From NCBI GenBank assembly GCA_027922465.2, contig BQMF02000366.1:62001-126000 (forward strand): a DNA stretch of 64,000 nucleotides, written 5' to 3'. The notes below the pieces were generated by a model that was not told the origin of the DNA, did no database searches, and saw nothing but the letters and a program-made list of their open reading frames with translations. Made by a program: the position numbers and the translations under genes. Each line of letters opens with the position of its first letter. Position 1 is the stretch's first letter. Origin of the DNA: Turritopsis dohrnii. Its lineage: Eukaryota; Cnidaria; Hydrozoa; Anthoathecata; Oceaniidae. Shown here in pieces: positions 3,452-38,541 of the stretch.

Positions 3452-3452
3452 A

Positions 3453-5167: not shown

Positions 5168-5208
5168 GAAAAACAAAGACAAAAAACGCGATTTTGTTCA
5201 TGCTAAAC

Positions 5209-5236
5209 GTTTCGGTGTTTATTACACCATGATCAC
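5209..5236 (-). ncRNA. Hammerhead-ribozyme-like motif of Penelope-like element
   Basis: Read on the minus strand, just beyond the stop of the Penelope ORF, this segment has GTGATCA, then a hairpin (GGTGT, loop AATAA, ACACC), then GAAAC. The hammerhead core is CTGATGA, stem II, GAAA, so the match is close but two of seven bases in the first block differ. Penelope-like elements are known to carry such ribozymes in their terminal repeats, which makes the placement meaningful. Cleavage activity is doubtful because of the core changes. Confidence 0.45.
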
Positions 5237-5310
5237 TAGCTCAATATACAATTTATCAAGTTCATACAAATATAACGATATTACAACATTCTTAATGTGT
5301 TTCAATTATG

Positions 5311-5982
5311 TTAGAACATCTCCAGGGGATATGAAACAACAGTGTTATTAAGATCTGGATGTAACTTTTTACACATTAGGGACTCTTTTATCAATAGTTC
5401 TAAATCACTCTTACCAGTTGCAAGTATCTTAACTGTCTCTAAGGATGTTTCATGACGTTCTGTCACGGCAGTTGGCTTTCTGATGTCATTATGTTCCCGA
5501 TATCGTGTTACTAAATGTCGTTTCGTTTTACCCACGTAAAATGACGGACAGTTTGTACAGTATACTCCGTATACTACCATAGATTTTAACCTTTTAGGTA
5601 TGGTGTCTTTTAATTTAAACAAGTCCGAAATACGACAGGTGGTGCGAAAGATAATTTTTATGTCGACTTGATTGTATGTGTCGGAAACCAACTTTTTTAC
5701 TCCTTTGTGTAACTTTTGGGATAAGTCACCATGAAAAGGAAGTACCATTAATACTTGTTTTTTTGGAACATCGTATGTTTGCTCAACTATTTCACTATTA
5801 TTGACTGAATTTACAAAGTTCTTCATAACAGCTTCAATCAATTTAGGTGGATATTGGTTTTTCACCAGATTTTCTCTTATAACATTTGCATCAGCATCGT
5901 AGGATGATGTTTTTCTTATAAAATTGATATGGCCCAGTTCTCGATCATTTATAGGTTTGTAGAACTTTACAGCAAGGCTATG
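5311..5982 (-). pseudogene. Penelope-like retroelement fragment, GIY-YIG endonuclease
   Basis: The minus-strand frame is open from 5982 to the stop at 5311, about 223 codons. The C-terminal half holds a GIY-YIG nuclease core, seen as VYGVYCTNC followed by FYVGKTKRHL and an Arg/Glu-His segment. In Penelope-like retroelements this endonuclease follows the reverse transcriptase and nicks the target. Here the reverse transcriptase is absent: a stop at 5983-5985 ends the frame and nothing recognisable lies further upstream, so the copy is 5'-truncated. It sits right behind the Helitron helicase gene on the opposite strand and probably inserted into the Helitron's 3' region. A hammerhead-like motif lies downstream at 5209-5236. 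Confidence 0.85.
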
Positions 5983-6119
5983 TTAGAGAGAGATGCTACA
6001 CTAGAAATGTAGTATACCAACAGGTATTATGAATATTTTTACCTTGCGAAAAATATACGTGCAATTGATATTAAATATTTTGAATTAAAACTTTACGCAA
6101 GGTTAATGAGGAGGCATTA

Positions 6120-6420
6120 GATTATAGATAACCTGGAAATTAAATTGGTATACATTGAATTGAATATACTGAAATTAAAGCAGTTTACATTTAATTGAAT
6201 TACACTGAATTGAGTTAATTGATTTGAATTACATTGAATTGAATTACCTTGAATTGAATTACTTTGAATTGAATTACATTGAATTGAATTATATTGAATT
6301 GAATTGAATTACATTGAATGGAATTACATTGAATTGAATTACATTGAATTGAATTGAATGAGTGTAGCATTAGATTAGATGACCTAGAAATTAGATTAGT
6401 TTACATTAAATAGATTAGAT
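6120..6420. repeat. Degenerate GAATT/ACATT simple repeat
   Basis: Long run of the units GAATTGAATTACATT and ATTGAATTGAATT with many small changes, bounded by two imperfect copies of a longer phrase containing GATTAGAT and ACCTGGAAATTA or ACCTAGAAATTA. It is low-complexity, non-coding, and of no recognised class. The 137 bases before it (5983-6119) hold nothing I recognise. Confidence 0.75.
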
Positions 6421-10867: not shown

Positions 10868-13800
10868 CTACATAGAGGTTTCTGACATCATTGGGGTTCT
10901 TGATGTGTATCCTTGTGCTTTTGTCGGTGTTTTTCCAAAGGTTTTCAAAATGGCTCTTCGAACATCTTCTTTAGTAGCAACGAACAAAACAAAGATCATG
11001 AATCCTTGAATGGAATTCGAAAGACAAAATAACCAGTCAAAAACGGGCTTTGCACTTCCTACTGAAAATACTGCAAACGTCCACGTCAAACCAAGTAGTG
11101 TTGAAAATACTGCAATGCGTTTTAACTCCGGTGAATGATTAACTTTACTGGTAGATTGCTCATCAATTGAAGATGCTTTTATTCCACGAAATATTGCAAA
11201 AAGGAGAATCCAGTTAATAAAGAGGATGACACATATCGGTAATAACAAACCAAAGTAGAATGTACAACCAGATAGAACACAACTAAGAAAGAAATCAGGG
11301 GAAGATAAGCCTTCGAAAAACGAAGAAACTTATTCAGGCATTATTAGCAGATTCAATTTTGTTAAATATACCAGTAAGTAACTGTGAGTTTACAAAATAT
11401 CAAGTAGCCTTACACGAGAGCAACTCGTTACAAGTTTAAGCATTTCTAAAATTTATAGAAATTTAGAAATATCCCCTAAACTTTAATAAACCACTTACAC
11501 ATGTCTACTTGTCAAATTGTCTTCTGTTGATAACAGATACGTGGCGATTACTATTATCACTGGCATTCCTACATAAAGATTAAAGAGTGCAATCAATATC
11601 AGGAACTAACTGATAGTTTAATGTCATCTCTGCAAATACTAAGGGTTTAACAAATTCTAGACCAAGTTGCAGGGCGTTAGTTATGTCTATGAGGTATCAT
11701 CTAAAAGTGGAGGTATTTCAAATTTTCACAATTTAATTTCTGTTAAACATTTGGTAGATTCAGCATTTTTGGAGATACATCGAAACTATAAATTAACCAT
11801 CAACCAATATCTATTGATCATTTTAAAATGAATCCCTATTAAAAGACGAAGAGAAGCTGCTTCTGTATGGCGATTTGGTATTTGGTACGATTTTTCATGG
11901 ATATTGTCTTTTACAGGGAATGGAAATAGATTGCAATATATCAATATAAGCAATATCAAACTCCTACAACCAGACTTTAACATAAGCTCAAGAAAAAAGT
12001 ATATCAGCAATAATCCACACGAGAGGACCAATCATTCTTTTACTTTGTTTTAGTGCTTTCTTAATAAGAAGTAGCTGCTTGTTTCCAGACCATTTTTCAA
12101 TTGTTATATTTCTACTGACATCAGCATGGTGCAACCCTCAGCTCTACATGTAATATTTCATTACCTATAACTTTTATTAATTTATTTCGTGAATGATGAA
12201 TTTAAAAGATGCGTGAATGAAATTAAAGACAAATGAAATGTATCAGACTTGTAAAAACACTAAGTTTTTATATTACGTTAAAGAGTACTTACCCCAAGCG
12301 AATAATGAAAACCATCGATATAGTTTACTTTCATCTCCAAATCTAAACACCTGAGTACATTTCCTGTATAAGTTGATTCCTCCTATCACCATACACAAGA
12401 ATGCGGTTAATAAGAAATACTGCAACAGCATAGAAGATATTTTGCAAACAAGTCCACTTTGTTTCGCACCAATCAGAAACATAACATATAATCCCAACAA
12501 TGATACACACAGTGATATCAAGATTCTCGGAACTAGTTTTGTTCTGAATGATCTAAAGTTTCATACAAAAATGTCATGTCTTCAAAAGTACTTTACCTGC
12601 TTATTAGCGTCAGCAAAATATAGTAAAGCCTCGATAATGCTCAAATGCAAAATAACATTATTACATCCAAGGAAAATCCACTTAAAAACTTAAATACCTT
12701 GAAACATAAACGATAATTGTTGACAGCAAGCCAACTATTGACAAAACACATCCAATCCACGTAATGATACTCAATGCAATCGGATTATGGAAAGACTGGT
12801 CGACATTGAGAATTAATGCAAAGTTTGTTAAATGATTGCATTCACATTTAACTAAATCAGTATCGTTGGTGTCGATCAATCTGCAACCTTTGGAAGACCA
12901 GCCACCATAAACATTTTTAATAATTGTTTCTAAAATGTGGACAGGTAAAGTAATTGTGATCGTTCCTATCAGTTTAAAGCAATCTTTGGATGCAGATGTT
13001 CTTCTGTAAACTCTTATGTAAACTGTAATGAATATAAAGACTCTAGTAAAAATCATAAAATTCTCGTTTGGGCTTTTATGGAATCAAATCCTTTATTGGT
13101 CAAATTCTGACTTCCTGAGAAAGCCTTAATCAAGAATTGAAGTAAGAAAATCAAGAATTATACCCTTTTTAAAATCCCAAAATTTACAAGTCCCATCATA
13201 TCCTTGATCTCTGTTTTTTCTGAACGCAAGCGTTATAGGCGTGGTCACATTAACATACGTTCGATTTTGTAAACTTGCTGATAAGATATTGCCAGCTACA
13301 ATGACATTGTTTTCAGTTCCTTTCAACTCTGCTTCATTCATGAAGTAGAAATGGTTACGATAGGTGAATGCGAACACAAAAGATATGTTATTATCTTCAA
13401 TGGTTTCCTTTGAAATTTTAATCATACTTGTTACTTTGTCAATATTTGGCTTTCTGTTCGACATTTTTATTGCAGAATATGGCAGCGCATCAGCTGTTAT
13501 GTAGATATCTTTTGGTGACGTTTTTTTAACCAACACTGCTATGTTCTTCTTTGGCAATGATACGGTACTTTCTCTGTCCGTCAAAGATTTGGCCATCTGC
13601 AACGCTAAATTTTCTAAATTTCGTAGCAGCTTTGTTGATGTTTGGAATTCTTTTTCGGAATCCCCTATGGCATTGTGTGATGCATCCAGTACATTGCTTG
13701 CCGTTTGCAATACATCCGAATATATCTATAAAATCAGCGAATTGATAAATTTGCGAGAAACGTTTCAGGTATTAACATTTAGGCTTACACAATTAACTTC

Positions 13801-16681: not shown

Positions 16682-17024
16682 TCAAAACACTGTACTTAAT
16701 GCTTTTTATCTTTACAAAAAGTTTTCCCCAAGCAATGAAATAAAACATCTTATCGACTTTCGTGAAGTTGTAATCAAGAACCTGGTTGGAAATAGATTGA
16801 AAGCCCCATCCGAAAGACCATTGGCAAATTTTCATTATGCAAGAATCATACCTGACAATCCCAAAACGAAAAAGCCAACAAAACGCTGTAAGCAATGTAC
16901 AAAAAAAGCCATAAGGAGAGAATCACGCTATGTGTGTGGCTACTGTGATGATCAACCAGCCCTTTGCGTCGACCCCTGCTTCCGGTTATATCATCAATCA
17001 ATAGGTGTTACAAATGATCAATAA
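16682..17024 (+). pseudogene. piggyBac-type transposase, C-terminal remnant
   Basis: One plus-strand frame is open from about 16682 to the stop at 17022-17024. The upstream part reads NAFYLYKKF, then a stretch ending DFREVVIKNLVGN, as in the end of the piggyBac DDE domain. The tail is the cysteine-rich zinc domain: CKQC, then CGYCDDQPALC and PCFRLYH. Only the last ~110 residues exist and no catalytic aspartates are present, so this is a 5'-truncated or decayed copy. A start at 16797 is not a true initiation site because homology begins earlier. Confidence 0.85.
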
Positions 17025-18090
17025 TAAAATTGTTGAGTAGAAATAGTTTCAAGATAAGAAATGTCGTCATCAAATATGAATCACTTTTGTTTTTCTTCTT
17101 TTGACGGATTTGACCCGCGAAAGTGCCCCATAATATCAAAACATTGATAGAAATTTGAAATCTGGTGCCACTAACGTCATTTATGAAAATTATGTCATTA
17201 TTTAGGTTAAAGTTTGTAATAAAACAGCATTTCATGTGAAAAATACTGCAATTGTTGAAATATGATTCACTAAAGTCAAACGAGTTTACTCGTCGTCCGT
17301 ATGCAACGTGTTAAAAGCCTGTTAAAAATGAAAAAAAAAGGTATATATGTCCATAGTGCCAATCTTCCGCCTTACGCTAGATATGGCCACTAAAATCACT
17401 CCGTAGCCAACGTGTTAAGTTCTAAAGTCTATGTCAACCGATTTGGCAGTTCGAACATTTGTTATGATAACTAAGTCAAAATAAATGATTTTAAAATTTT
17501 AGCGTTAAAATTTGCGTTAGAAAAAAGTACACCAAAAGCGTTGAAACTTACACAGGAGCGAGATCAATCCTTCACAAAGAAGTGTGCAAACTTTATAACA
17601 AAATCTTTATTCTATCGGAAGTTCTCAGCCCAAATATGGGACCCGGTAGAGCCCTAACAATATCTGATAACCGAAATAACTGAAACCCCGCATGATATCA
17701 TGTTTTTTTATTATTTTGTGGTACACCCAAATGAAATGAAATTGTGGTGCCGTGTAAAAATATCGAATATGTCCGTGGCGCCGCTATTCAAAAATGTGCA
17801 GGTATCCAGAACAAAGTTTACCAAAATCCCGCTGGACCCGCACTTTATATTTTTTTGGCTGCGTATTATGGAGAGAGAGAAGAGATAGTTCGAAACTCGC
17901 TGTAATCAAGCAAACAATCAAAGCAGATCGCGACTCTATTCAATACGAGTGGGAGCATACAAAACTCACTGTGTTCTAAAAGATTTTCTATTTTTCGCCA
18001 ATGTTTGAGCTTGGAGTCCGCAACAAGTACGCAAAATTTTTCATTCGAAAATCTCATCATGAAAACTTATGTTCTTTTTTCATCCACTTT
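17025..18090. other. Non-coding, no gene recognised
   Basis: This follows the piggyBac tail. Two phrases containing GCAACGTGTTAA (near 17300) and CCAACGTGTTAA (near 17408) surround GC-richer DNA and might be remnants of the same piggyBac element, whose target site is TTAA. Nothing else was recognised. Confidence 0.35.
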
Positions 18091-18202
18091 CATTTTATTA
18101 CATAGTGTGGCAGCTTTTTCGTATTACATAGTGTGGCAGGTATTACATAGTGTGGCAGAAGATTGTTACATGGTGTGGCAGGTATTACATAGTGTGGCAT
18201 AA
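18091..18202. repeat. Short tandem repeat TTACATAGTGTGGCAG
   Basis: Five copies of TTACATAGTGTGGCAG or close variants, separated by 1-12 bases. The predicted frame across it merely translates the repeat. Confidence 0.85.
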
Positions 18203-18394
18203 CAACGTTTTGCATGGGGTGTTTTGAGCTTGTGTATCTGGTAACTATTTGTATAGTTCAGTATCATTGTTTTTGGTTTAATATGACTCTCTGGTTTTGA
18301 ATTTAAGAACTTTAGAAGGATCTTGTGTCCAAAACGATATGAGCAAATATGATAGAGTTCAAAAAGTTGTTTGTTAGTAAATATTTCATAAGTT

Positions 18395-18570
18395 ATTTCC
18401 AGTTTTTAGGATATGTATTGCATTTTAAAAATCTTCACTTTATGCAATGAATATTTTATGATGTAATAAGATAGTATATAGCTAAAACTTCTCATCGCAA
18501 GTTATGATTAATACATATCTTTTTAATTTACTATAGGAGTGAGGGCTTTCACTGTTAGTGAGTGAAGTTA
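18395..18570 (+). repeat. Interspersed repeat, copy 1
   Basis: About 170 bp closely matching, in reverse complement, the segment 62910-63250. Shared phrases include CTTCTCATCGCAAGTTAT and TAATTTACTATAG and GGGCTTTCACT. No terminal inverted repeats or coding sequence are seen in it. The second copy is interrupted by a MITE. Confidence 0.7.
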
Positions 18571-19024
18571 TAATATATGCAGAGTTTATACACATCAAAC
18601 TTAATAAATCTCATTACAAAAATTATTTGTGGTATGATTTGATGATTTTTAATCAAAATATCTACCAATGAAAACAGAATTCCCAACAACTAAGACATCT
18701 CGAACAACTTTGTATATTCAATCTTCCCTTGAAATATCATTTTGGATGCAGGAACACTTTGGAGTTTTATTCCTTCATTATACAAAAAAGACTTAACATT
18801 CTTTTTTTGCAAAAGATCAAAATATTTTTTCCATTATAAAATCATTTCTTGTTTCCTATTTCTTCCTATTTGTTCTTGGAATTGCCTCAGGAACTTCTAG
18901 AAACACCATTCTATACTATCCTGATTTTGGTTTCCCTAAGTTGAAATTATAATTCTCGACTGGTACATAAAATGTATTTATTTAATGTATGTATGTATTT
19001 ATCTATTCTGAGTGATCCAATCAG

Positions 19025-22000
19025 CCATGGTACCATGGCAAAGGTTCAAAGGTTAAATTTCAAGCTTCTACACCACCACCAAAAAAGAGAAGTGTGACCA
19101 ACTCTCCTAACAATACTAGGTAGGCAATTGTTCGTACTTTAATAAATTGCCAATTTGAAATAGGGAATCTAAGATAACACCAATATTTACCGTGGCCCAT
19201 TAGTGACATTTTATTCCATCAACTACATTTTATTACTGAGTTAACATTATCACGTTTTATCTGCCTATGCCACCTTTCTTGATCATAAAAATATCGACCC
19301 CATTAGAAATTTAACTGTCCATACGTTATTTAATCCTTCCATTACAAGAAAATATTTACTTAAATTATCACGTCCTTTTGAGCTTACTGTCCATTTCGTA
19401 TATTATCGCGCCTTTCCCGAACTAACTGGCCATTACGTAATTTTTATCGCGCCTTTTCCCGAACTAACTGTCCACTATATAATCATTAACGCGTCTTTCC
19501 CGAACTAACTGGCCACTACGTAATTATTAACGCGCCTTTCCCGAACTAACTGTCCATTATATTATCTTGACATCGCTCCAAAATTAACTGTCCTTTTCTA
19601 AAGAATTATCACGCCTTTTTAAACTAACTGGCCATTTCGTTTATTATATCGCGCCTTTCCCGAATTAACTGTCCATTACGCAATTATTAACGCGCCTTTC
19701 CCGAACTAACTGGCAATTTCGTTTATTATCGCGCCTTTTCCCGAACTAACTGTCCACTATAAATCATTAACGCGCCTTTCCCGAACTAGCTGTCTATTAC
19801 GTAATTATTAACGCGCCTTTCTGGAACAAATGGCTGATGGCGGGAAAGTCAGCGCTTAAAAAGATGGAAAGATGGCAGCGATAAGTGTTGGAAAAGTAAG
19901 TCAATTAATTTGTTTCTGGAACTGTGTGTGACTTGTGCAAAGTTAAAAGCGATAACATAATTACGAAATAGTCAAAAACACCTAAAGCAACCTATTTTCC
20001 AATTTTCATCAACTACGAGGAAAACAAACAGTTTAATGAAACTTTAACTCCAAAACAACAAGTGAAGTGATGAAAAATAATAACTCCGGCTACTAGTTGT
20101 AAGGTCTTTCTACATGAATTTTAAGTCTATCATAATATTAAAACACAAATTCTTGTTTCAAATCATTAATGTTCGGTTCTCTATCAATATTTTTGAAATT
20201 TTTTAAACTTTAACAAACATAGTAGCTCAACATTTTTGTATTTATTTTCTTTGACAATTTTCAACCAAAGGTAACATCAGCATGTTTACTTATGCATGAA
20301 TAGATTATTAAACATAGACTCATTAGCCAAATAAATGTTTCATTCATTCATAACGAAGATCTATGTTTTGAAACTATATTATAGTTGTGAAGTGGTGATC
20401 ATGTTACATTGCTGATTATAGATCAGTGATTTCCTGCTCAGTCGTGATGTGGAACAAGCTGTCATCGATAATTTCATTAAAAATAAGGTATATATTATAT
20501 TTCATTATAAAATGGCAGGATTATCACTTATGTGAATAAAATTATATGAATATAATTATGCCTGTAGTGATGGTTATATTATATATATACTTGAATTTTT
20601 TTTCAGATAGATGAAAATGCTGTGTGGACTGCTTCTGAGGAACAATTAAGACAGTTAGGACTTGAGAGACAAGGTGATATCATCAGCTTAAAATCATTTG
20701 TAATGCCACCATTTTTAAATGTTGGTACTAGTGAATTGGTGAGCAAAGTAAAACAGGCTGGTGTGGAAAGAACCAGAAATAAAAAGTCTTCATTAAAGAA
20801 ACTGGGAAAGACGAAACAAGTTTTCCTTGGTTGGAAACATTTTCAAGCTGATTTGAAATGTTATAGGCCTGTCCGTTCCGCTAATGGTGGTGGTTCTAGA
20901 ATTGCAGCATTTCATTTAAATGCCACTAAAACTGATATTATTAATGTGGCCAAAGATTACTTTTTTCCAGATGGGAAATCAAGTTTTGGTTATGCAAAAC
21001 ATATAGCATTTGAGTTAGCATCATTTGATGATCAAGTAGTGCAATCTGATTTCATTTTGAAGAGTTTTATAGAAAAGTTAGGACTAACTAAAGTACGTTT
21101 ACTTCTACGGTCCAAAAGAAAACCCTTTGAATCAATGTTTGAATCAGATGATTCGGATGAAGATGACTATGGTGGCCGAGAGCCGCCAAGTAGAAAAGTT
21201 AAATAGGACACGATATATTAAAAAAATATTTAAAAAAATAAAAACGAAAATAAAATAAAATAAAAAATTTATTTAAAGTAGTGGAAATTGGCGGACCTCG
21301 GCTTTTATATCAACTTTGCTTTTAAATTTTTGAAAACTGAAAACTCCTAGACGAGAAGCAAAGTGGACATTGTTGTTGTTGCGCACGTGGTAGAAACAAC
21401 GGCTGTTCTTCAGTGGGAACAGCATGGGGAGCGCGCAGAGTGGAGATCTTGAAAGTGTTTCTTGTGCTGTTGTGTGATGTTGGTTTAAGTTGAATAGTAC
21501 TTAAAAATCTTTGAGTATAATTATCATGGCTGCAAGAGCGGATGTGCCTAAAATAAGCTCTCTTTTTTTGTGTCTTTCATTTTTTTTCGTGTTAGAGTGA
21601 ATGAGTAGAAAAGAGTGGGCTTGCTTCTTAGATCATCTATATAGCCAGGCTAAACAAAAGATAAGAAATTTATTAGGAAAAAAATAGCTTTTTTGTTTCT
21701 GTGTTATTTATTACAACTTACTTGTTTTTAGTCGTTGATATTTTATAAATTATGTCAGATTGGAAGTCTGATTTATTGTTGAAAGACATACTTGTGAGGT
21801 ATGTATCACAGAGGCTTAAAAGAAGTGAAATTCTGAGTTATGTTACAAGAGACTTCCCTCAGTATTGCTGGAGCATGCGATCATTGGAAAGGAGACTTAG
21901 CTACTTTGAAATAAAATACATTGATTATGCTGTCTCTGCTAATGATGTACAAGCTGCTATAGAGTCTGAATTAGAAGGTGCTGGAGCTCAGTTAGGGTAC

Positions 22001-25000
22001 CGTGCTATGACAAACAAAATAAGGCAAAATCATGGACTCAATGCACCACGAGACTTAGTTTACAACTTGATGTATGAAGCTAACCCCGATATGGTTAAAA
22101 ATCGGACACCTCGATTCAAGAAAAAGAAAAATAAAGAACAGTTTGTTTCAGAAGGAGTAAATTGGTTTCATTCATTAGATGGCCACGATAAGCTAATGGG
22201 GTACCAAAACTCAACGTACCCCATTGCTATCTATGGTTGCATCGATACAGCAAGTCGAAAGATTTTATGGCTGAAATGCTGGACATCAAACAGTGATCCA
22301 AACTTACCTGGCTATTGGTATATTGAACATCTTCTGGAAACAGGACTTTTAGCTAGGAACATCAGAATTGATCGTGGCACAGAAACTGGAAAATTGGCTT
22401 CAGTTCATAGTTTTCTTCGAAGACATCAAGGCGACTTAGCTGACCCCTGTGACTCAGTGCATTATGGACCATCTACATCAAACAAGGCAAGTTACATAGT
22501 ACAGTATGGTTGCAAAAATGTTAAGGTGTGAAATGAGGCCAGAAGGTGTAATTCTCAGCGACATTGAGGAACCTGAGCAGATGTCCATAATATGGACTTT
22601 ACATGTTTTAAGAAAAGATAATATGAAAAGTGGTTCATTTTGAGTTGGTTTTTATGCTTTTACCAAATTAAAAAGTGCAAAAATGTAACAAAAAAACACT
22701 TTCATAAATTTTGAAAAATCATGACATCATGGACTTTTGGGGGGATTTTAGGGCAAAAAATGGTTTTTTGGTTGGGGCTGGATGGGATAAGCTGTCAAAA
22801 TTTGATTTTTGTCTGGGTTCATTTTTACATGGTTTATCAGTCTCAACTAAAGTCATCACCTAAATTTCTCTTATCTAGCCCATGTTGCTGAGGTTTTCAG
22901 GGTTAATTTATTCAAAAATACAAGGCATACAATTGATATCAATGCTATTCTTTTTATAGATCGAAAGATGGTGGAGGGAACTCCATGACCGTCTGGAAAA
23001 GTTCTTTAAAAAAGGTTTAAATGAATTAAAGAATGATGGTGATTATGAACCTACCAGCCCTCAGCATAGGTGAGGGTAGTAATATGTATGCTAATATGAT
23101 TATTGCATAGCTATTTTAAGCAAATTCATGTGCAACATGTCCATAATATTTTTAGAAATTTATTGGCATTTATTATGATACCACTAATTCAAAGAGAACT
23201 AGACATCTTTAAAGATACTGTCTGGAATACACACAGAATTCGCTGCCAAAAAAATACGTTACTTCCGAGTGGAGTTCCGAACCATATGTATGATTTTCCT
23301 AATGAGTATGGGCTTGAACAATGTGGTATGTATTTTCTATACACAAAAGACTCTTTTCTCAGTGTGCTCTTTTAACTTCCTTTTACTACTTCTACAGAAG
23401 AATGAAATGGACAACTTGAAAGTGTTACATCATTATTTTCCTGTCTACAGGATTGTATATGTTGCTTTTTTGCAGGACATATTATTTCGAAAGAAGAAAT
23501 TAAAGAAGCTGCAATCAACTCTGGTGTTCTGGTAGCTGGCCAAGATTTTCTCCACAATGATGTACGCACAAGATGTGAAATGCTGATACCCAAACCGGCA
23601 GAAATCTCCTCAAAGCACTTTAAAACCGCATATTTGTATTTAAAGCAAAACTTTTGATTAAGCCTATTTTGTCTATTCTTTAGTTATTTTAGTATATTTT
23701 GTTAATGAAAAAGTACCGCTTTGCTCTACCTGCCATTCATCTTGTATCATGTAAATATTCTTTTTCATGCTATCAAAAAGCTATTAGGAAGGTTAACTTT
23801 GTTTTTGTTTTTATATGTATACTGAAACTTTGCATCTTTTGTTGTATTCATTTAAAAAAACTAATACAAATAGATGATATACGGCTGCATAACCCTTTCT
23901 TTCCCCTGCCCAGCATATGTATTATATATCCTAGATCTTTTGAATAAGTTCTTAAGGGTTTAAGTCACATGAGTTATGAAAGAGAAAATTTCAAAAAACA
24001 TGAAAAAACATTGTTGAAAAAGTCATCAGGAAATGATTCTTTTTTTTTTTTTGTAGAAAAGCAATATACACAAACAATGGCCAAAAAGAATCCAGCTTGG
24101 GATCTAATTGCAAAAAAAGTTTCTGATAAAAGAAAGGGAGAAAAAGCTGGTGGTACAAAGGCTGGGTTATCATCCAAGATATTGGCAATTCTGGACAGAG
24201 AAGAGTTAACTGTACAAAGGTTGAGTAGTGAAGTTAGTGGCAAAAACCCGAAATACTCACTAATTGGGGCACGTGAATTTGTGCCCTTTACATTCCCAAC
24301 ATTTACCGTTGAAAATATAAAGAAAGCTTGTTTGGATCATTATTGCACTGTAGATCCAACATTAACTGGAAGTGCCTGTGATGTTCTCGCTTCAGATCGT
24401 GGTCCATCATGTACAAACATTGATCAGTTACCTAACCCTAGCTTGATCAATGTTAGATTTTTAGGTGGTAGCATCTTCAATTCCACGAGAAAAAGGACTT
24501 TCTCTCTTGCTTCCTCTCCCTCAGCTGGTCATGTGAAATCTGTTGCTGCTTCCGTACCCGCTTCATTGTTGTTTAAGCGGAAAAAAACTCAGCCAGTATT
24601 GGTGCCAACAATCTCAATGTCAAACATGCTGAAGTTGGGCAAAGTTTTGGAATCAAAGGCAGTCTCTATAAAAGTCCAGACATTTTCTGTGTTACATATG
24701 GTTTGGTCAGAGTCCAAGAATGTTAATTTTACCATATCTGAAAACTCTCTTGGCGAAGGCACTTTTAGAAAGGCATTTCTAGCTAATAGCTTGGACAAAG
24801 ATTATGCGAATCATTCGTGGGTAATTAAAAGGCTTAAAGATGATGCAATATCCAGCATCGCTGACCTGGATCAAACACCTGAGCAACAAACAAGAAAAGT
24901 GGTGCAAATGCACTGCTTAGCAAAATATTTCACATTAAAAATGAAGGAGCATGTTGCAGAAAATTGTTCATCTGCGTTTGGCGATACTTTCGAGTATACA

Positions 25001-28000
25001 GATATAATGTTTGGAGAACTTTGCGTGGAAGGTGTCAACGAATATGTGACAATTGAGGAGTATTTGGTGGGAACATTCGAAAAGTATTTAAATAATGATG
25101 CTAAATGTGATGATGGGCCAAAAGATGATTTGGTACAAAAAGGAGAATGCCTAGCCCATTATTCATACTACCAATCTGAGGGTCAGTTGCTGCTGACAGA
25201 TATCCAGGGATGTAAGTATATGTTAAGCGACCCAGAAATCGCAAGTGTTAAATGCTTCAAAGATGGTGAACATATGTATGCGTTTGGAAACCTTTCAACT
25301 ATTGCCATCAAAACATTTGGTTTGAGCCACGAGTGTGGAAAGTATTGTGAATTATTAAAGTTGCCGAAATTGAACAAAGAAGAATTTCAGGCTATGGAAG
25401 ATGACGTGTAGGAATTTGTTTTCTTTCATTTTTGCTTGTTTTAGGCTTATGTATTTATCTTTTATTTTAATTTATTTTATTTTTAAGAAAATTTGCACAC
25501 TTCCTTTTTAAAGTCTGTTCAAAAAATATGTGGACTAATTTCAGTTACCATGTGGAAACCAGATTTAGCAAATTACATCAATTCCCTTGAGCCTGGTTTT
25601 TATATAAAAGCTGAAATCAGTCCACATATTTTTGGAACAGACTTTAGCTTGATCTCCAGCGTCTGAACCTTTCCTGTAATGAAGAGCCAATGAATCGTTT
25701 TCCAAAACGTCGAAGGAGAGCCACGTAATTATTGTGTATTCCTCTTGGGAATAATATGTTATCTACTACGCAAAGGAGTGTACAAAAGCAAGACACATGC
25801 AACCAATAATAGAGCCAAATTGCGATGGAATCGTATTTTTCTATTGTAGAAATATTTCACACACTTCAAAATATGCGCATAAAATTTTCGGAAATCTTGA
25901 AAAAGATAGTTCATTCTGGGACAGCGTTTTTCAAAATAGCGCGCGCAATATGAAAAAGTGCGGAGGGTCCGCAGGTCGTCAGGCTACGTTCGTATTTATT
26001 TTTTTTCCTGTAAGATATTGCTTTACTTTTTAGACAGTTGTATTTTATCTTGTTTAGTAACAGTTGCGTTTGAATAACAGCTTTTCTTGACAAATTCTTA
26101 GTTATCATTCCACCTCTACCAATTTTATGACTTTCGCCTTTTGACTGGACTATGTTTTAATTTCAAACTGTGTGGACAGATAAAAGTCAAAATGGGGTGC
26201 GTCGAAACTAAATAGTTGAAAAAAAATTGTTTACAATGTTTTTGACTGACGTCTTAATTGAGAAATAAAACAAAAACGTACTTGCGTAGTCGGGTAATAA
26301 AGATGACGTATTGCCCTCGCTAAAGCTTGGCAAAGTGATAAAATCCGTGCCTGTTCACAAACTCCCCAACAAACACACGAAAAAGTGCCGACGGTTTATT
26401 GTAGTTATAGTTCTTGCTCCTCGTTCAGAGGTCAGTGAGAAAAATCACAGCCAAGCATCCTGTTGAAAAATGTTGCTGTTTCTTAGGGATTAAAATCGAG
26501 AAGAGCCCCTGGGGGATCAGATTGACTAGAAAATAATACTGCAAAAAAATCAACCTCGTTTCCAGGGCGTCTCCTTTCTGACGGGCTAAAAGAGAAAGAG
26601 GCCCTAGGATCTAGGCTGCAAAAATATAGAAACACTGCAAGTTAAAAGTTGGCCGAGAGCCGCCAAAAAAAAGTAATGATAATTAAAACGAAATCAAATT
26701 TGCTTGGCCGAGAACCGCCAAAAATAACATTGACAAAAAAAGAATTTAATTTGTTGAACAAAAAAAAATCAAATACTTATAAAAAGTAAAAACAAAGTGA
26801 AAAAAAAAGCTAAAAACAAAAATGAAATAAAAAAATGAAATGAAATGAAACATAACTTCATGAAATCACACAACTTTTCTACTTGGCGGCTCTCGGCCAC
26901 CATAGATGACCTTATTCAATCAAACCTGCACTTGGTAATTCGTATTGTCTATTTAGATAATATCCTAAAGTTTGGCCATAACCAATTGCTTAAATCTAAA
27001 TCTTTTGAGGAATGATGAATGTGTTCTTATGGGCAATTCTGAAGAACGGGAAGCACTACGAATTGAACAAGATGATGCTTACATGGAGTCCCTGAGTCAA
27101 GATAGGAAGTATGAAACTGAGCAAAAAGAGTTACGTGATTAGTTCGGGAAAAGCGCGTTAATGATTACATAGTGGACAGTTAGTTCGGGAAAAGCGTGAT
27201 AATAAACGAAATGGACAGTTAACTCAAAAGGACCTGATAATTTAAGTAAATATTTTCTAATGGGGTCAATATTTTTTTGATCAAGAAAGGTAGCATAGAC
27301 AGATAAAACGTGATAATGTTATCTCAATAATAAATTGTATTTGATGGAATAAAATTGATCTAGATGTCACTAATGGGCCACGGTAAATATTCATATAATT
27401 CATCAAACATTGCTTAGAATCAATTTAAGCATCAAATAGGCAAATTGATTTTCTGATTATGTTTTTACTTATTTCAGAATTTTTACTCCGAACAATCATT
27501 CGGAAACATCGCCTCTAGAGAATCAGATACTGAAGTATGTAATCTGATATTTTCTTAGTTTTTAAAACCAAATTTTAATAGAATTTTCTTATAGCACAGG
27601 ATATCGCATTGGAAAAACAACTGGGAAATGCAAAACTGAACTGTTCAATGTTCTTGCCTTCTTTTCCTTACAACAAGCATTCGTTTTCTAAATGACACTA
27701 CAATAAGTGACAGTGATTGCTACCTTTACAGTGATTGCTAAACTTTATTATTACTTAGTATAAACTTTGCTTCTATTAAACCAGTGCACATTTTGACCAA
27801 AGTTATGGTTGCTCATGCACTGACGTGGTGGGGCTGGGGAGAGATGATTCTGTAGTAGTTGTTTGAACAGTCCACGGAGAAATAGAATTATTTTCAGACA
27901 TTTCTCACTAAAGTTTCTTTTTGTTCATTTTTTATACTTTTGACTTTGTGCTTTTAGAGAAATAGTCAATATGATTGACGAATTTAACAAGAAGCTGGAC

Positions 28001-30556
28001 ACATTGCAGCGAACGGTGGACAAGCAGCAGACCGTAATTGATGGGTTGGTAGCTGCAATTGAAGATACACGATCTGCCAATGCCAACAACACTTCCAGAC
28101 AAGAAGAAGAAGCTTTGCCTGTTGAGCTTTCTGTATGTAATGCCGCAATTCATTCTCAATTTGCTTTTTTAGTCCTTTTTTAAAATCTGTACTCAAGCAT
28201 TTCAAGTCATAATAGCAAATGATTCATGACGCATACAAAGTCATTGATGAGAAGGTTAATGTTAATGTTAGTTAAGGTTAGTGCGAGTATCTTTCATTTT
28301 TACTAAATTTTACCGGCAGTGGTGCGTACAAAAATAGTCAGCCAAACATAATAGACCTAGGATTCAATATTATGTACCATAACACCTATGATTATGTCGA
28401 TTTAATTCGACCCATAACATTTCCGTGACCAATAATATCGTCACGATGATAAAAGACAAGTTTCCTGACTCGTCTGACTTCTCATTGCGAACTATTCGAA
28501 GTATGACAAATTAACCATTTTTTGTCCAAAATCATTGCATTCCACCATCTTTTTGACATAGGTATGTTAATACAATTTTTGTTAGGCTGATAGTTCGTGT
28601 TCAAATCAATAATAACAATACTGTTGATCTGAAAAACTAACAAGAGCCAGATGGCGCAAAACGGTAGCAGCAAGCAGCATACTTTCGAAAGCACGACCAA
28701 AAATTGCCATAAACAAAATAGTTAGTGTAAAAACCACTAACCCTAATATCCAGCAAACATTCTAAAATAAATTTTTCTAATATTTCATCGCTTAATAATA
28801 CATGAAGAAAGAAATATAGAAGAAAGAAAGGCTTTAAGTTAAAAGTAGTAAGTAGTTACTTTTACTAAAAATGCTTAACATTTGGATGTAAGGTACGATT
28901 TTATCGTCGGTAGTTCAACCTTAACTAACTTTTTAAAGTCTGTTTAAAAATAGTGTGCACACTTTTAAGATTTGCTTACCATTTGCTCAATTCTGAACCA
29001 ATTTTAACAAATTTGGTATCGTTGGATAGACATTAAAAAGCACCATATTGTACAGAAATAAAAAACCCAAAAAAAGAAAAAGAAAATGAAGAAAACAGAA
29101 GATGAAAAAAAACAAATGTTTTATACAAAAGTCATATATATTTGATTTTTATATCATTGGAAACCTTATTCTTTGGCGATTTCAAAAATATATATATTTA
29201 ATGGAAAATTTTCATTAGTTTTTGGAATATTGCAGCAACGATGCTATTACTTAGAACATTTTAGACTTTTCAACCATTTGCAATTTTTAGAAAGCCGGGG
29301 GTTACTTTATAAATAATTTCATAGTGCATTTAGTTATACATTATTCAAAACAATTACATTTGATGTGAAAATAATGCTGAACTTATTGCAGTGTCCAAAT
29401 TCTATTGAGCCAAAACTTGATTTGATAAAATGGAATAGACAAAAAGCCACTCAAATAGTGTTTTCAAACGTGAAATTATAACGCGTGTATGTTTAAAATG
29501 TATGGAAAAGTAATGTAATGTTGTTATAGTGTAATCTAGACTTTGATTTGATTGATGTGATTTGATTTTCACACCTTAAAAAGTTGTTAATGTTCTTGCT
29601 TAAGTACAAGTATAATTACTGTGTTTTCAGATATTTCCCCCGTCTTTCAAAAATCAATAAAACTGCCAAATTTCAATATACCCCCAAATGTATCATAATA
29701 AACAGACTTTAAAAAGTTAGTTAAGGTTGAACTACCGACGATAAAATCGTACCTTACATCCAAATGTTAAGCATTTTTAGTAAAAGTAACTACTTACTAC
29801 TTTTAACTTAAAGCCTTTCTTTCTTCTATATTTCTTTCTTCATGTATTATTAAGCGATGAAATATTAGAAAAATTTATTTTAGAATGTTTGCTGGATATA
29901 ACCTTGGAATATTTTTAGACTGCGTTCCTTTGTGAGATTTCATATGATTTTCTGAACGAAATCTGATCGAATGTTAAGCGTAGGCTAAAAACTGCCGTTT
30001 CGGCCGGAGGAGTAGGAGGAGTAGTAGTAGTAGGAGTCCAAGGGTGTTACGCTGCTACCGTAATAACACAATGTATATCAATTTACACAAGCCTGTCGAA
30101 GATACTTCCAGACTCGAGAGCAGAGAAAGAAAAAGTGAATGATAATTACGACCAATTAAAAGAATTAAAGAGGCAAAATTTGACTATAGAGTAAGTTCTT
30201 ACGTTACTATTACAACCTCTCTCTTTAGTACTTTACATGAAAGAGGTTTACAAATATTTTTTCTTTTTCACATGTTTTGTTAGTTGAAGAACGCACGTAG
30301 CAAATTTGGTGATTCGGAGGTGTGGAGTGAAATACCTGCCGAATTGATGAGTGACACTGAAGATGACCAATATGGTAACAAGGTGAAAAGGTCTGTTTTG
30401 TGGCGAATGGACGCGGTCACGGAATTGTGTTGCGAGAGTGATCGTGCTCGAAACATTTTGTATATGTATGGGGAACATACAGCATGTGGGCCAAGCAACA
30501 AAGTACCGGTGACATTGATAAAGCCACAATTTGTTAATGACTTTGTTACCGAGTAA
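19025..30556 (+). CDS. Coiled-coil protein gene of unknown function (host gene)
   Basis: Four plus-strand exons fit by phase: about 19025-19119 (phase 2 out), 27478-27534 (2 to 2), 27958-28132 (2 to 0) and 30284-30556 (stop TAA). The first encodes a basic, nuclear-signal-like patch, PPPKKR. The third gives a heptad-rich coiled coil (about residues EIVNMIDEFNKKLDTLQ onward). The last encodes a compact C-terminal domain with FGDSEVWSEIP, RSVLWRMD and a final KPQFVNDFVTE. Donors read AG|GTAGGC, AA|GTATGT and CT|GTATGT. The 5' end is not found because an in-frame TGA lies just upstream of the first exon's probable acceptor. No family was identified with confidence. The first intron is occupied by an 8.2-kb transposon and the last by a fold-back element. 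Splice sites on both sides of the transposon remain intact. Confidence 0.6.
19360..19832. repeat. Subterminal ~41-bp repeat array, left end
   Basis: About 11-12 copies of a ~41-bp unit built on CGCGCCTTTCCCGAACTAAC followed by TGTCCATTACGTAATTATTAA or TGGCC variants; unit starts at 19407, 19448, 19490 and 19531 show the spacing. The right end has two or three reverse-complement copies at 27141-27230. Such arrays in DNA transposons usually bind the transposase; here that role is inferred. TG/GG and ACGTAA/ACTATA variants alternate. Confidence 0.88.
19872..21206 (+). CDS. SAM-like / GGG-domain protein of the transposon
   Basis: Three exons join in phase 0: 19872-19895 (ATG, donor AAA|GTAAGT), 20422-20487 (donor AAG|GTATAT) and 20607-21206 (stop TAG). 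The product is 229 residues. Residues ~9-57 look like a SAM-type helical domain (FLLSRDVEQAVIDNF then WTASEEQLRQLGL). The middle has a second domain with LGWKHFQADLKCY, SANGGGSRIAAF and FFPDGKSSFG, the pattern I know from the N-termini of transposon-associated G2E3-like ubiquitin-ligase-like proteins in fish and cnidarians. No HECT domain follows; the protein ends in an acidic run (ESDDSDEDDYGG) and a basic tail. It is the first gene behind the left subterminal array, so its promoter probably lies in that array. Its job is unknown; an adaptor for the integrase or kinase is speculation. Confidence 0.78.
21207..21751. other. Intergenic spacer and leader of the integrase gene
   Basis: Non-coding gap inside the transposon. 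An A-rich stretch with several AAAATAAAA runs at 21222-21266 could serve polyadenylation of the first gene. No core promoter could be assigned. Confidence 0.35.
21752..23657 (+). CDS. IS3-like DDE integrase/transposase
   Basis: Four exons give 398 residues: 21752-22486, 22960-23069, 23156-23325 and 23476-23657 (stop TGA), phases 0, 2 and 1. The first intron has a GC donor, AAG|GCAAGT; reading through instead reaches a stop at about 22531 and loses the catalytic glutamate. Residues 1-135 hold a helix-rich DNA-binding region with SMRSLERRLSYF, LGYRAMTNKIRQNHG and a lysine patch RFKKKKNK. The catalytic core follows: FHSLDGHDKLMGY with Asp143, IDTASRK, RIDRGTETG with Asp207, and, across the splice, IERWW with Glu247, i.e. 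a DD39E triad. The C-terminal exons contain LIQRELDIF and NTHRIR, typical of this integrase family. It would cut and join the ends of the surrounding element in the nucleus. No frame lesions are visible. Assignment to the IS3EU-like group is from memory of the family. Confidence 0.85.
24077..25411 (+). CDS. Alpha-type (MHCK/eEF2K-like) protein kinase of the transposon
   Basis: A single coding exon of 444 residues is read from the ATG at 24077 (context AACAATGGC), just after a long T tract and acceptor TTTGTAG at about 24054. The frame opens further up at 23969, but that part is A/T-rich and probably untranslated. Residues 1-215 form a Ser/Lys-rich region with a conserved-looking CDVLASDRGPSC block. 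The alpha-kinase domain spans ~220-430: glycine loop GEGTFRKA (226-233), ATP-contacting Lys in WVIKRLKDD (Lys251), FEYTDIMFGE, YVTIEEYLVG, catalytic TDIQG (374-378), MLSDPEI, and the zinc site HECGKYC (His418, Cys420, Cys424). The loop usually rich in glycine before the zinc site reads FGNLSTIAIKTF, a departure from the family. It should phosphorylate proteins on Ser/Thr. It lies 420 bases behind the integrase, same strand, inside the same inverted repeats. Confidence 0.85.
   Translation: MAKKNPAWDLIAKKVSDKRKGEKAGGTKAGLSSKILAILDREELTVQRLSSEVSGKNPKYSLIGAREFVPFTFPTFTVENIKKACLDHYCTVDPTLTGSACDVLASDRGPSCTNIDQLPNPSLINVRFLGGSIFNSTRKRTFSLASSPSAGHVKSVAASVPASLLFKRKKTQPVLVPTISMSNMLKLGKVLESKAVSIKVQTFSVLHMVWSESKNVNFTISENSLGEGTFRKAFLANSLDKDYANHSWVIKRLKDDAISSIADLDQTPEQQTRKVVQMHCLAKYFTLKMKEHVAENCSSAFGDTFEYTDIMFGELCVEGVNEYVTIEEYLVGTFEKYLNNDAKCDDGPKDDLVQKGECLAHYSYYQSEGQLLLTDIQGCKYMLSDPEIASVKCFKDGEHMYAFGNLSTIAIKTFGLSHECGKYCELLKLPKLNKEEFQAMEDDV
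25412..26649. other. Transposon interior without gene; contains a 138-bp MITE
   Basis: Non-coding region after the kinase gene. At 25509-25646 lies a MITE with ends TAAAGTCTGTTC and GAACAGACTTTA and ~37-bp arms (ATATGTGGACTAATTTCAG pairs with its complement). The rest shows no coding pattern. Confidence 0.6.
25509..25646. mobile_element. TAAAGTCTGT-family MITE
   Basis: 138-bp inverted-repeat element with imperfect ~37-bp arms, no coding capacity, ends identical in the first ten bases to the elements at 28934-29711 and 33786-34842. It is nested in the large transposon, so the family moved after the large element arrived. Confidence 0.8.
26650..26910. repeat. GGCCGAGAGCCGCCAA repeats and inverted copy of gene end
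   Basis: The 16-mer GGCCGAGAGCCGCCAA occurs at about 26652 and, with one change, at 26706 on plus. It also occurs on minus at about 26884-26899 within a 34-bp exact inverted copy (26877-26910) of 21168-21201, the last codons of the SAM-like gene. Long A-rich runs lie between. This may be a partial inverted duplication of the gene's 3' end, possibly a shared terminator or a rearrangement scar. Confidence 0.65.
26990..27141 (+). pseudogene. Possible remnant exon near right end of transposon
   Basis: One frame is open from about 26970 to TAG at 27139-27141, directly abutting the first right-end subterminal repeat. The translation ends with a highly charged helix, EEREALRIEQDDAYMESLSQ and onward, of the type found in UBX/FAF-like and other ubiquitin-pathway coiled segments. 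No start codon context or acceptor is convincing. It could be the stranded last exon of a longer version of the SAM-like gene. Confidence 0.4.
28133..30283. other. Last intron of coiled-coil gene, with fold-back element
   Basis: It holds the fold-back element 28746-29899 and otherwise non-coding sequence. A GGAGGAGTAGGAGGAG purine-rich run lies near 30005. Confidence 0.5.
28746..29899. mobile_element. Fold-back element with nested TAAAGTCTGT element
   Basis: Bases 28746-28946 are repeated in reverse complement at 29699-29899 (201 bp each, apparently identical in every stretch I compared). Within these arms sit the ends TAAAGTCTGTTTA (28934) and TAAACAGACTTTA (ending 29711), so a 778-bp TAAAGTCTGT-family element forms the centre and its flanks are themselves inverted copies. 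There is no coding capacity. Confidence 0.85.
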
Positions 30557-35707: not shown

Positions 35708-37631
35708 ATGTATAATTTAAAGAAGTCTACAAATCATGGAAATATATGGTATAGCTGCAAAAAAATGAAGTCAAGCTGTTATGGCAGAAGAAATGTGTTT
35801 GTATCAATGCTTTTATTACTCGCTGGGGATGTTGAAGCTTGTCCAGGACCCGATATTCCTGAGCTGTCCACATTATTATCGAAGAAAGTTTTGAGCCTGT
35901 TTCATCAAAATATTCGAGGCTTAGCAGCAAATATTCCTCACTTAGAAATAATTTTACAAACTTACAAAAACATTGATATATTATCTCTCAGTGAAACATA
36001 TATTTCATCAACAGACTTTGATTCGTTTGAAATTCCAGGGTACAACGTTTTCAGTAAAGCAAGATCAAATGGGAAAGGAGGAGGCGTTGGAGCTGATGTC
36101 TCAAATAAAATCCCTATACAAGACCGTGAAGATCTGGAAAAAAGTAAAATTGAACTTTTATGGCTGGAAATTGACCTGAAGAATGCGAAAAACGTCATAC
36201 TAGGAATCCTGTATCGACCCCCGGATTCTTCTAAATATCTAACAAAAAACTTTAATAAACTTTTTGCAGATAACTTATCCACCGTTTCAAAGGAAAACAA
36301 AGAGATAATTGTTATGGGTGATGCAAATGTTAACTTTCTCAATAAAAATTCAAACATTGACTTCAAAGCAATTATGAGTCTTTATGGTTTGAAACAATCA
36401 GTGAAAGCTCTCACGAGAACTTCGAATGAATCTGAGACAGTTATTGACATTATTGCATCTACACACAGTGAAAACATTAAAGATACAACAACAATTCCCT
36501 CAAGTATTGCTGATCATGAAATGGTTGGCTGTATTAGAAAACAACAGCGTTCAAAGTTCGCTCCAAAGAAAATAAATTGTCGTGATTATCGAAACTATTC
36601 TGAAAACGTAATACGAGACGATTTGTCAGCAAAAAACTGGGATTTTCATTACTCTATTACAAATGTCAACGATGGGTAGAATTTATTCTATACATATCTC
36701 ATAGAAACAATTAACAAAAGAGCACCTAAGATGGAAAGAAAATAATGGGGAAACCGTGCCCTTGGCTAACTAAAGAAATAAAATCGCTGATAAATCAAAG
36801 AGATAATATGTTACGAAAATGTCGTAAAAGTAAACATGAAACTGATAGAGAAGCATACAAAGTATTAAGAAACAGAGTAAATATTCTTATACGTAAAGCA
36901 ACCTCAGACTATAATAAAAACTTGCTGGAAGAAAACAAAAACGACCCCTCTAAATTCTGGTCAACTATTAAAGCGATATATTCTATTGCTGGAAAATCCT
37001 CCGTCCAAAGTACATCATTTTGTGTAAACGGTTCAAGAACTGAAATGATTGCAAATGGTTTTTGTTCATTTTTGGGAACCATCGTGAGCAATCTAAAGAA
37101 ATGTCAAATCTCTCTAATAAATTTTACATGGACATTTCCAGCTTATCAAAAAACCCGCAGTAATAAGAGATTCTGTCTCCAATACGTATCGGTTACTGAA
37201 GTCTCAGCACTACTTAGAAAATTAAAACGAAAAAAGTCTCCCGGTCTAGACGAGATTCCAGCTGGTTCCTTAAAAGATGCTGCACCAGTTATATCAAATC
37301 CGTTATCTCATCTGATAAACTTGTCGCTGAAAGCGGGTATTATCCCAAATGCATGGAAAGCTGCTAAAGTCACTCCTATTTACAAATCGGGATTACGATC
37401 TGATTTTGGCAACAATTTCAAATTCAATATTATCTATTATTTCGAAAATACTGTTGAATACGTTGAACTAGCTTGGTTCTCAGACTATTTATTTAGCCGT
37501 AGCCAAAGAGTCGTTTACGCTGGAGAAATCTCAGATCCTCAATATGTTACAAATGGAGTACCTCAGGGTTCCTTACTAGGCCCTCTACTGTTTATTTTGT
37601 ACCTAAATGTACTCTCTGAAAAATTCACTCA
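35708..37631 (+). pseudogene. LINE (CR1/L2-like) with APE endonuclease and truncated RT
   Basis: Frame 35708-36679 encodes an APE-type endonuclease: FHQNIRGL, LSETYIS, ILYRPPDSS, VMGDANVNF and the final SDH-like SIADHEMV. A 2A-like motif, GDVEACPGP, precedes it at residues 40-48. After a stop at 36679 and a second lesion near 36740, the frame 36745-37653 continues into reverse transcriptase (KKSPGLDEIPAGSL, VTPIYKSG, then NGVPQGSLLGPLLF). An internal deletion near 37410 removed RT core blocks, and the catalytic YxDD segment is missing because Helitron A interrupts the element at 37632. In life such proteins copy LINE RNA into nicked chromosomal DNA. This copy is dead. CR1/L2 affiliation is tentative. 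Confidence 0.88.
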
Positions 37632-38541
37632 TCTACTTATATTAATCGCTTAGTGTGTATACCACTTTTATTTTAGAGAGTGATATATTTACTTTTTCTT
37701 TAACGGTCAAATCCTTCTTATTTTTTCCCTTTTCGTCGTAAAACCACGCAGCGCGACAGACACTTTTTTTAATGTTACGTAATCTAAGTATGACGTTTCT
37801 TTCGGGAAACCAACACCATGCGCATAATACCTGGTAGAGATTTTTTTAATGTTACGTGATCAGTATTATCTTTGATTGTTTTGATTGTTTTGATTGACGT
37901 GAATGCTTTTGAACCAATCAAAATTGGTTTCCAAGATCGGACAAACTATAGCAACCAATTCGTTGGAAAAAGTAAACAAATTAAGTTTTTATTGAGTCCA
38001 GTCACGCTCGATAGACGATTGTTTATTATTACATACCATTTATTTAGCGAAAGCAAAAGATTAGGTAAACTGTTTGTTTAATCTAAAAATGGGAAACTTA
38101 TTAGCCAGTAAGTTTCCCATTTAAACAATGATTAAATAGAGATTATTTATTTATTTAGATCTTTCTGTTTGCTGTAGCTGCTGTCCTCCTGATTGATAGA
38201 TTGTTTGCATTGTTTATACGTTCAGAAAATACGTCAACGAGGTAAGATATGTTTAAAAATGGTAAACTTTACGGCGGATTTTCTTTTTAGAACTGTTTAT
38301 AACGTTTATTTCTGTTTGTCTTCCAACACGTTCTCTGTCTGCATTTCAGGTTTGCTGTGTCTTTTGAATAGACGTTAGTTAGTTTGTAGAAAGAAAGGTT
38401 TGGGGGACATTTTTATCACTGTTTCGACTTATTCTGATTATTTTCTCACTTTGCTTCTCTGCCTCTGCCTAGATTGCTTTGTGCTGTATACTCACAGTTG
38501 GTAGCTATTTCTTTCTTTTTTGTTGTTAGTGTTTCTGAACT

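Follow-up and report, generated by a model that had tools for sequence, protein, structure and literature searches.

An 8.2-kb block in the genome of the hydrozoan Turritopsis dohrnii raises the question of which genes lying between a pair of matching transposon ends belong to one element. The block is part of a stretch of 64,000 nucleotides (positions 62,001 to 126,000 of contig BQMF02000366.1, or C366:62001-126000 in the 436-Mb, 891-contig genome searched here), hereafter the window. A first-pass annotation read it as a single transposon that couples an integrase, an alpha-type kinase and a SAM-like adaptor, with kinase and adaptor as conserved parts of the element. Three genes on one strand do lie between matching outer ends, which favors that reading. 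However, the block consists of two IS3EU-type cut-and-paste DNA transposons, one nested in the other: an inner element with the integrase and kinase genes was inserted, with a 6-bp target duplication, into the SAM-like gene of an outer element (Table 1).

The outer terminal inverted repeat (TIR), TACCGTGGCCC, is identical at 22 of 22 bases between 19188-19209 and 27364-27385, with no match in any of 100 shuffles, and is flanked by the target-site duplication (TSD) AATATT. These repeats had been recognized correctly in the first-pass annotation, but it began the element at TTACCG, the first T of which is still part of the TSD; the element itself starts with TACCG at 19188 and spans 8198 bp. A second perfect inverted repeat, beginning with TATGGTGGCC, pairs 21168-21200 with 26872-26904 (33 of 33 bases), has GATGAC on both flanks and bounds a separate 5737-bp element with ends reading TATGG...CCATA. 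When 17000-29500 was scanned for TA-starting inverted 14-mers with at most three mismatches and identical 6-bp flanks, three pairs were returned: those of the outer and the inner element, and one within the outer subterminal region that is flanked by AATATT; the chance rate of a random 6-mer match in the window is 0.00046. The last residues of the SAM-like protein as first described, YGGREPPSRKVK, are inner TIR sequence, and if the flanks are joined without the inner element, the SAM-like frame runs on as ..DSDEDDLIQSNLHL... Furthermore, window positions 19444-21167 and 26904-27028 match adjoining segments (L012rc 378-2104 and 2098-2224) of another outer copy, L012, with no inner element between them. 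Because L012 is contiguous across the insertion site, an empty site is present in the same genome. The integrase and kinase thus have TIRs and a TSD of their own inside the SAM-like gene, so there is no single three-gene element.

The genes had also been described as lesion-free. Besides the interruption of the SAM-like gene by the inner element, two stretches present in L012 are missing from the outer copy in the window: one of about 215 bp near 27024-27028 (between L012rc 2224 and 2439), the other of about 4.9 kb at about 27138-27140 (between L012rc 2555 and 7433). An intron at the first of these breaks was considered and rejected, since the L012 comparison shows a deletion. As this nesting illustrates, a check for inner ends should precede any reading of the gene content between matching ends as one element.

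Other copies of the outer ends bear on the same question. The genome contains 40 outer-end matches: 22 form facing pairs, one in the window and ten elsewhere, and 18 are unpaired; the ten pairs outside the window (L009-L018) and three unpaired ends (L019-L021) were compared by tblastn at E 1e-3. Every one of the ten two-ended copies has an exact 6-bp TSD and encodes an integrase (integrase A) 30-41% identical to that of the window. No kinase match was detected in any of the ten at this threshold, and nine have no match to the SAM gene either, L012 being the exception. Given these copies with a different integrase, the separate TIR and TSD around the integrase and kinase, and four complete kinase elements without a SAM match (below), a composite transposon with the SAM-like adaptor, integrase and kinase as conserved parts between the outer ends is hardly credible. 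Both observations named in the first-pass annotation as contradicting its model, namely copies with these ends but without the kinase and SAM-like genes, and insertion junctions around the kinase, were thus made here. Integrase A is mostly more than 90% identical to that of L012; the stretches in L013 and L014 are shorter and weaker, and in several copies the matches are spread over two or more frames. The TSD GATATG is common to L014 and L015, which may represent one duplicated insertion. Among the unpaired copies, L020 has the SAM/HECT gene with its HECT part in more than one frame, L021 has an integrase A relative, and L019 has neither.

The outer relative L012 (C150; 7480 bp; TSD CGAATG) has the longer form of the outer gene. 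It contains an integrase A open reading frame (ORF) at 1039-2208 on the plus strand (PF24764, 112.7 bits) and, convergent with it, a gene at 3935-6337 on the minus strand that joins the SAM-like/GGG part through a EEREALRIEQDDAY linker to a HECT-like C-terminus. From this layout, what was taken for an adaptor is the first half of a gene resembling HECT ligases that belongs to a different element; the 5′ half in the window is 96% identical to L012 (tblastn). The L012 C-terminus scores 23.3 bits against Pfam HECT (E 5.9e-5), just below the cut-off of 23.9 and with its best stretch confined to residues 442-514, and no sequence in PDB matches the HECT exon at E 0.1. The string AKACFKILYLP, spotted by eye near the C-terminus of the translation, is a candidate for the region of the HECT catalytic Cys. 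The gene of L012 and L020 may be regarded as a transposon-borne, ubiquitin-ligase-like gene. The SAM-like label of the first-pass annotation is only suggestive, as the match to PF18017 (E 0.089, 13.3 bits) is below the Pfam cut-off of 23.6. The predicted structure of the SAM/GGG protein is of too low quality for comparison (predicted local distance difference test, pLDDT, 44.9), a homology search returned a single homologue, P0121, and NCBIfam gave no match for any of the three window proteins.

After subtraction of the inner element and one TSD copy, the outer element in the window measures 2455 bp. Interrupted inverted similarity extends inward from its left TIR to about 19459, and a nearby array of 41-bp units provides candidate transposase-binding sites. 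Integrase A, retained by the ten relatives, is absent from this copy, which is therefore at most a non-autonomous IS3EU member. It would derive, by internal deletions, from a longer element resembling L012, in which integrase A and a SAM-like/GGG/HECT-like gene face each other. The TA..TA termini and 6-bp TSD of IS3EU are present in the window and in all ten two-ended copies. The outer ends, TACCG..CGGTA, do not match the TAYGG..CCRTA form of the TET-bearing fungal IS3EU families, which also have 6-bp TSDs (PMC12730594); 6-bp TSDs are common to IS3EU and the outer family.

The inner element shares with IS3EU the TA..TA termini, the 6-bp TSD (IS3EU in general usually has TSDs of this length; PMC10045372) and a DDE integrase-type transposase, and these features, here TATGG..CCATA, GATGAC and DD39E, fit that superfamily; the inner ends also agree with the fungal TAYGG..CCRTA form. 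For these hydrozoan elements the assignment is by ends, TSD and DDE domain. The inner integrase (integrase B) matches PF24764 at 72.4 bits (cut-off 26) and has 508 homologues at E 0.001. DD39E spacing, as first annotated, holds on the joined translation of four exons placed by splice-site sequence, as were the exon borders of the outer SAM-like gene, and not by transcripts; the triad comprises the D of HSLDGHDKL, the D of IRIDRGTETG and the E of KIERWWRE. IS3EU is expected to lack an HHCC zinc domain ahead of the core; on this point a Pfam scan at E 1, a look at the domain level, returned only PF24764 and a weak HTH_21. GingerRoot and IS481EU have related integrase-type transposases, and GingerRoot has 6-bp TSDs and mostly TA ends; unlike the inner element, IS481EU is reported to encode a single protein and to have TSDs of around 4, 15 or 25 bp (PMC10045372). 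A small palindromic repeat, perhaps a miniature inverted-repeat transposable element, lies within the inner element at 25509-25646, with 54-bp arms that are 83% complementary and partial similarities near 28924 and 17562.

The kinase was correctly identified as alpha-type in the first-pass annotation. Its start is likely the ATG at 24077, roughly where the homologues P0001, P0002, P0004 and P0006 begin. Across 68 aligned proteins, active-site and zinc positions are retained: D411, Q413, D421 and H397 in 68/68, K287 in 67/68, and H454, C456 and C460 in 66/68. The residue roles (catalytic Lys and Asp, zinc His and Cys) were assigned in part by alignment to 1ia9; the fold comparison covered residues 229-477. 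Over the domain, identity to TRPM7/ChaK, MHCK A and eEF2K is about 20%, and in contrast to these enzymes the element kinase has a distinct N-terminal domain, outside the catalytic part, which is conserved across the 68 proteins. No further Pfam domain besides PF02816 was above cut-off. This N-terminal domain and the SAM GGG domain look alike by eye, but homology is not supported (hhalign probability 0.2-0.3%, one of the two profiles consisting of only two sequences). A motif resembling a nuclear localization signal, K[KR]x[KR], is found in the kinase linker in 32/68 proteins, as against 8.9 expected from shuffling. Profile scans gave no relatives of the kinase, integrase or SAM proteins in viral contigs, and none of the kinase or integrase in genome contigs.

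At least 98 kinase matches were obtained in the genome, with 89 scored out of 232 candidates from a first look. Of these matches, 44 cover 390 residues or more; by hand count, 29 are free of stops and 15 contain a stop. At C201:311332-315338, two kinase copies of equal score lie inverted about 1.3 kb apart. For the best 30 of these at least 98 matches (L022-L051), an integrase relative was detected within 1.5 kb of 28 (E 1e-4). The remaining two, L040 and L041, have no integrase match in their 1.5-kb flanks; in a wider stretch of the L040 place (L063), an integrase end appears about 2.9 kb upstream, at the stretch edge. Furthermore, four of twelve wider loci (L057, L059, L060 and L062) are complete integrase-kinase elements with TATGGTGGCC ends and a 6-bp TSD, and the 3.4-4.0 kb ones contain the two genes and otherwise only ORFs of roughly 100 codons. 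No SAM or HECT match was found in any of the twelve. The inner element of the window has a close copy in C206, where the left inner end differs at one base and the stretch examined shows no right end; in L025 the left inner end is exact.

The divergence of the two genes was compared over 13 usable loci of 16; L055 and L063 have too little integrase, and L052 was omitted as it duplicates the window's element. The kinase and integrase identity matrices are correlated at r = 0.91, a value reached in 0 of 10000 permutations. With one locus per family (n = 9; kinase identity below 80%), identities are 0.33-0.53 for kinase and 0.43-0.63 for integrase, and the Mantel r is 0.67 (4 of 10000 permutations). 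Linkage, complete relatives and matching divergence together support the kinase as an old, co-inherited partner of the integrase in the inner lineage, within this one genome and as judged from sequence. Of the proposal that kinase and adaptor are conserved parts of the element, the kinase half is thus upheld for the inner element, and the SAM adaptor half is not. A passenger kinase, that is, repeated capture of host alpha-kinases by IS3EU with no role in transposition, has a parallel in TET genes, for which passive transfer among transposon superfamilies of fungi is reported (PMC12730594), and would agree with the one kinase locus, L064, that has no integrase match. The agreement of divergence over nine families, the conserved N-terminal domain and the complete elements with essentially two genes argue the other way, and we consider passenger status unlikely.

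Several observations weigh against an old partnership. Many of the 28 integrase matches are pieces only, since the flanks were 1.5 kb, and among the 30 loci are the window's own kinase, copies that are nearly identical, the C201 inverted pair and a C682 pair. L064 (C269; the L041 place) has a kinase and no integrase match in 6.6 kb, L056 (C193) retains only the last part of its integrase, and the integrases of L055 and L063 are partial. In eight of the twelve wider loci (L052-L056, L061, L063 and L064) no end pair with a TSD was found; the L052 stretch starts inside its element, and the rest may have decayed or been truncated. Between families, synonymous divergence (dS) is saturated. The ratio of nonsynonymous to synonymous divergence (dN/dS), proposed in the first-pass annotation as a check for each gene, could be computed only within near-identical groups, with too few changes to decide: it is 0.26-0.95 for 18 kinase pairs (16 distinct, as two loci were entered twice; dS 0.03-1.2), with few changes, and 0 to 1.01 for 19 integrase pairs. 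Selection on kinase and integrase is only weakly shown, given the small number of changes, the overlap between pairs and the stops in some copies. All linkage and divergence evidence comes from one genome.

How might the partnership work? Integrase B would cut at the TATGGTGGCC ends and insert with a 6-bp stagger, and the kinase, probably an active enzyme able to enter the nucleus, would raise or time transposition by phosphorylation. To the full explanation, which combines nesting, an old integrase B/alpha-kinase partnership and such a nuclear role, we assign a probability of roughly 0.87. The target may be the cognate integrase or transpososome, or it may be host chromatin, repair or silencing factors; each has a chance not far short of even, with the rest left to a kinase without a role in transposition. 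A kinase facing only the host, countering silencing or damage signalling with no contact with the transpososome, would be in keeping with the HECT-like gene of the sister lineage and with fungal TET, another IS3EU accessory gene, which the author of PMC12730594 considers to act on silencing. Direct partnership explains the co-divergence with the integrase at least as well, and we hold an exclusively host-facing kinase to be a serious contender, if somewhat improbable. Should the partnership be real, a kinase diverging in step with its transposase would offer a tractable system for transposon self-regulation by phosphorylation.

An alpha-kinase gene in IS3EU is already in print for fungi. In all TET-positive fungal families, TET lies between the transposase and alpha-kinase genes, which are in opposite orientation, including those of rust fungi and Tuber (PMC12730594). 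L057, L059 and L060 are likewise convergent; unlike the TET-positive fungal families, the window element and some other families have integrase and kinase on one strand. In rusts, the alpha-kinase family is described as highly expanded in one paper, and PF02816 is tabulated as enriched in wheat rusts in another (PMC4469406 and PMC5295586). The word kinase is nowhere in the main text of the GingerRoot/IS481EU paper (PMC10045372). In the open-licence literature searched, largely from listings, we found no report of an IS3EU alpha-kinase in animals and no paper joining IS3EU and HECT. New here are the animal two-gene elements, both of their gene layouts, the test of co-divergence and, in a sister lineage, the HECT-like partner. 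A broader and rather doubtful idea is that a second gene for a signalling enzyme is a regular part of IS3EU (the co-diverging alpha-kinase, or SAM/GGG-HECT in the sister lineage), that this enzyme would control transposition by phosphorylation or ubiquitylation, and that the integrase-kinase pair may predate the animal-fungal split or have moved between the two. Since an integrase adjoins 28 of the 30 best kinase matches in this genome, names such as "TRPM6-like" or "myosin heavy chain kinase-like" may in some cases have been given to predicted animal genes that are transposon genes.

Table 1. Features of the nested elements (window coordinates) and complete relatives of the inner element (length)
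Feature	Position or length	Strand	Remarks
Outer TSD, left	19182..19187		AATATT; 6-bp TSD also in 10/10 other two-ended outer copies
Outer IS3EU-like element	19188..27385		8198 bp including nested element; internally deleted, without own transposase
Outer left TIR	19188..19209	+	TACCGTGGCCCATTAGTGACAT; identical to right end
Subterminal array	19386..19821	+	41-bp unit, 10.8 copies
Outer SAM-like/GGG(-HECT) gene, 5′ half	19872..21167	+	Exons 19872-19895, 20422-20487, 20607-21167; cut by inner insertion
Inner TSD, left	21162..21167		GATGAC; equals right TSD
Inner IS3EU-type element	21168..26904		5737 bp; integrase + alpha-kinase; TIR + TSD
Inner left TIR	21168..21200	+	TATGGTGGCCGAGAGCCGCCAAGTAGAAAAGTT; 33/33 identical to right end
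Integrase	21752..23657	+	398 amino acids, DD39E; exons 21752-22486 (GC donor), 22960-23069, 23156-23325, 23476-23657
Alpha-kinase ORF	23969..25411	+	480 amino acids, open; PF02816 102.2 bits, cut-off 21.3
Kinase N-terminal domain	24167..24463	+	Conserved (residues 67-165); predicted as two successive helix-strand-strand units; most pLDDT values >90
Alpha-kinase catalytic domain	24752..25348	+	Residues 262-460
Two subterminal copies of 17-bp TIR motif	26650..26721	-	TTGGCGGCTCTCGGCCA; 26650-26666 exact, 26705-26721 one mismatch
Inner right TIR	26872..26904	-	Pairs with left TIR
Inner TSD, right	26905..26910		GATGAC; equals left TSD
Outer gene, remainder past insertion	26911..27141	+	LIQSNLHL.., then beyond deletion ..SEEREALRIEQDDAYMESLSQDRKYETEQKELRD + stop; HECT part gone
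Outer right TIR	27364..27385	-	Identical to left end
Outer TSD, right	27386..27391		AATATT; matches left TSD
L057	3416 bp		TSD CAAGTG; integrase + kinase convergent
L059	4004 bp		TSD CAACAC; integrase + kinase convergent
L060	3681 bp		TSD ATGTAC; integrase + kinase convergent
L062	4990 bp		TSD CTTTAA/CTTTAG (one mismatch); integrase + kinase on same strand

Other features were observed elsewhere in the window. A Helitron at 237-5167 on the plus strand has ORFs matching Helitron_like_N (203 bits) and PIF1 helicase (201 bits). A tRNA-Glu call at 3453-3524 overlaps the end of the first of these ORFs and scores 31 bits, barely above the cut-off of 29, and so may be spurious. A second, more broken Helitron at 38542-42942, also on the plus strand, retains a PIF1 helicase ORF at 41098-42942 (182 bits), its upstream pieces being judged by eye. 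Pieces of a retrotransposon without long terminal repeats lie on the plus strand at 35708-37653, with endonuclease and reverse transcriptase matches both under Pfam cut-offs. On the minus strand, exons of a gene resembling adhesion G protein-coupled receptors (GAIN, GPS and 7tm_2) were found at 10868-13710. A short minisatellite with the unit GTATTACATAGTGTGGCAG occupies 18096-18199.

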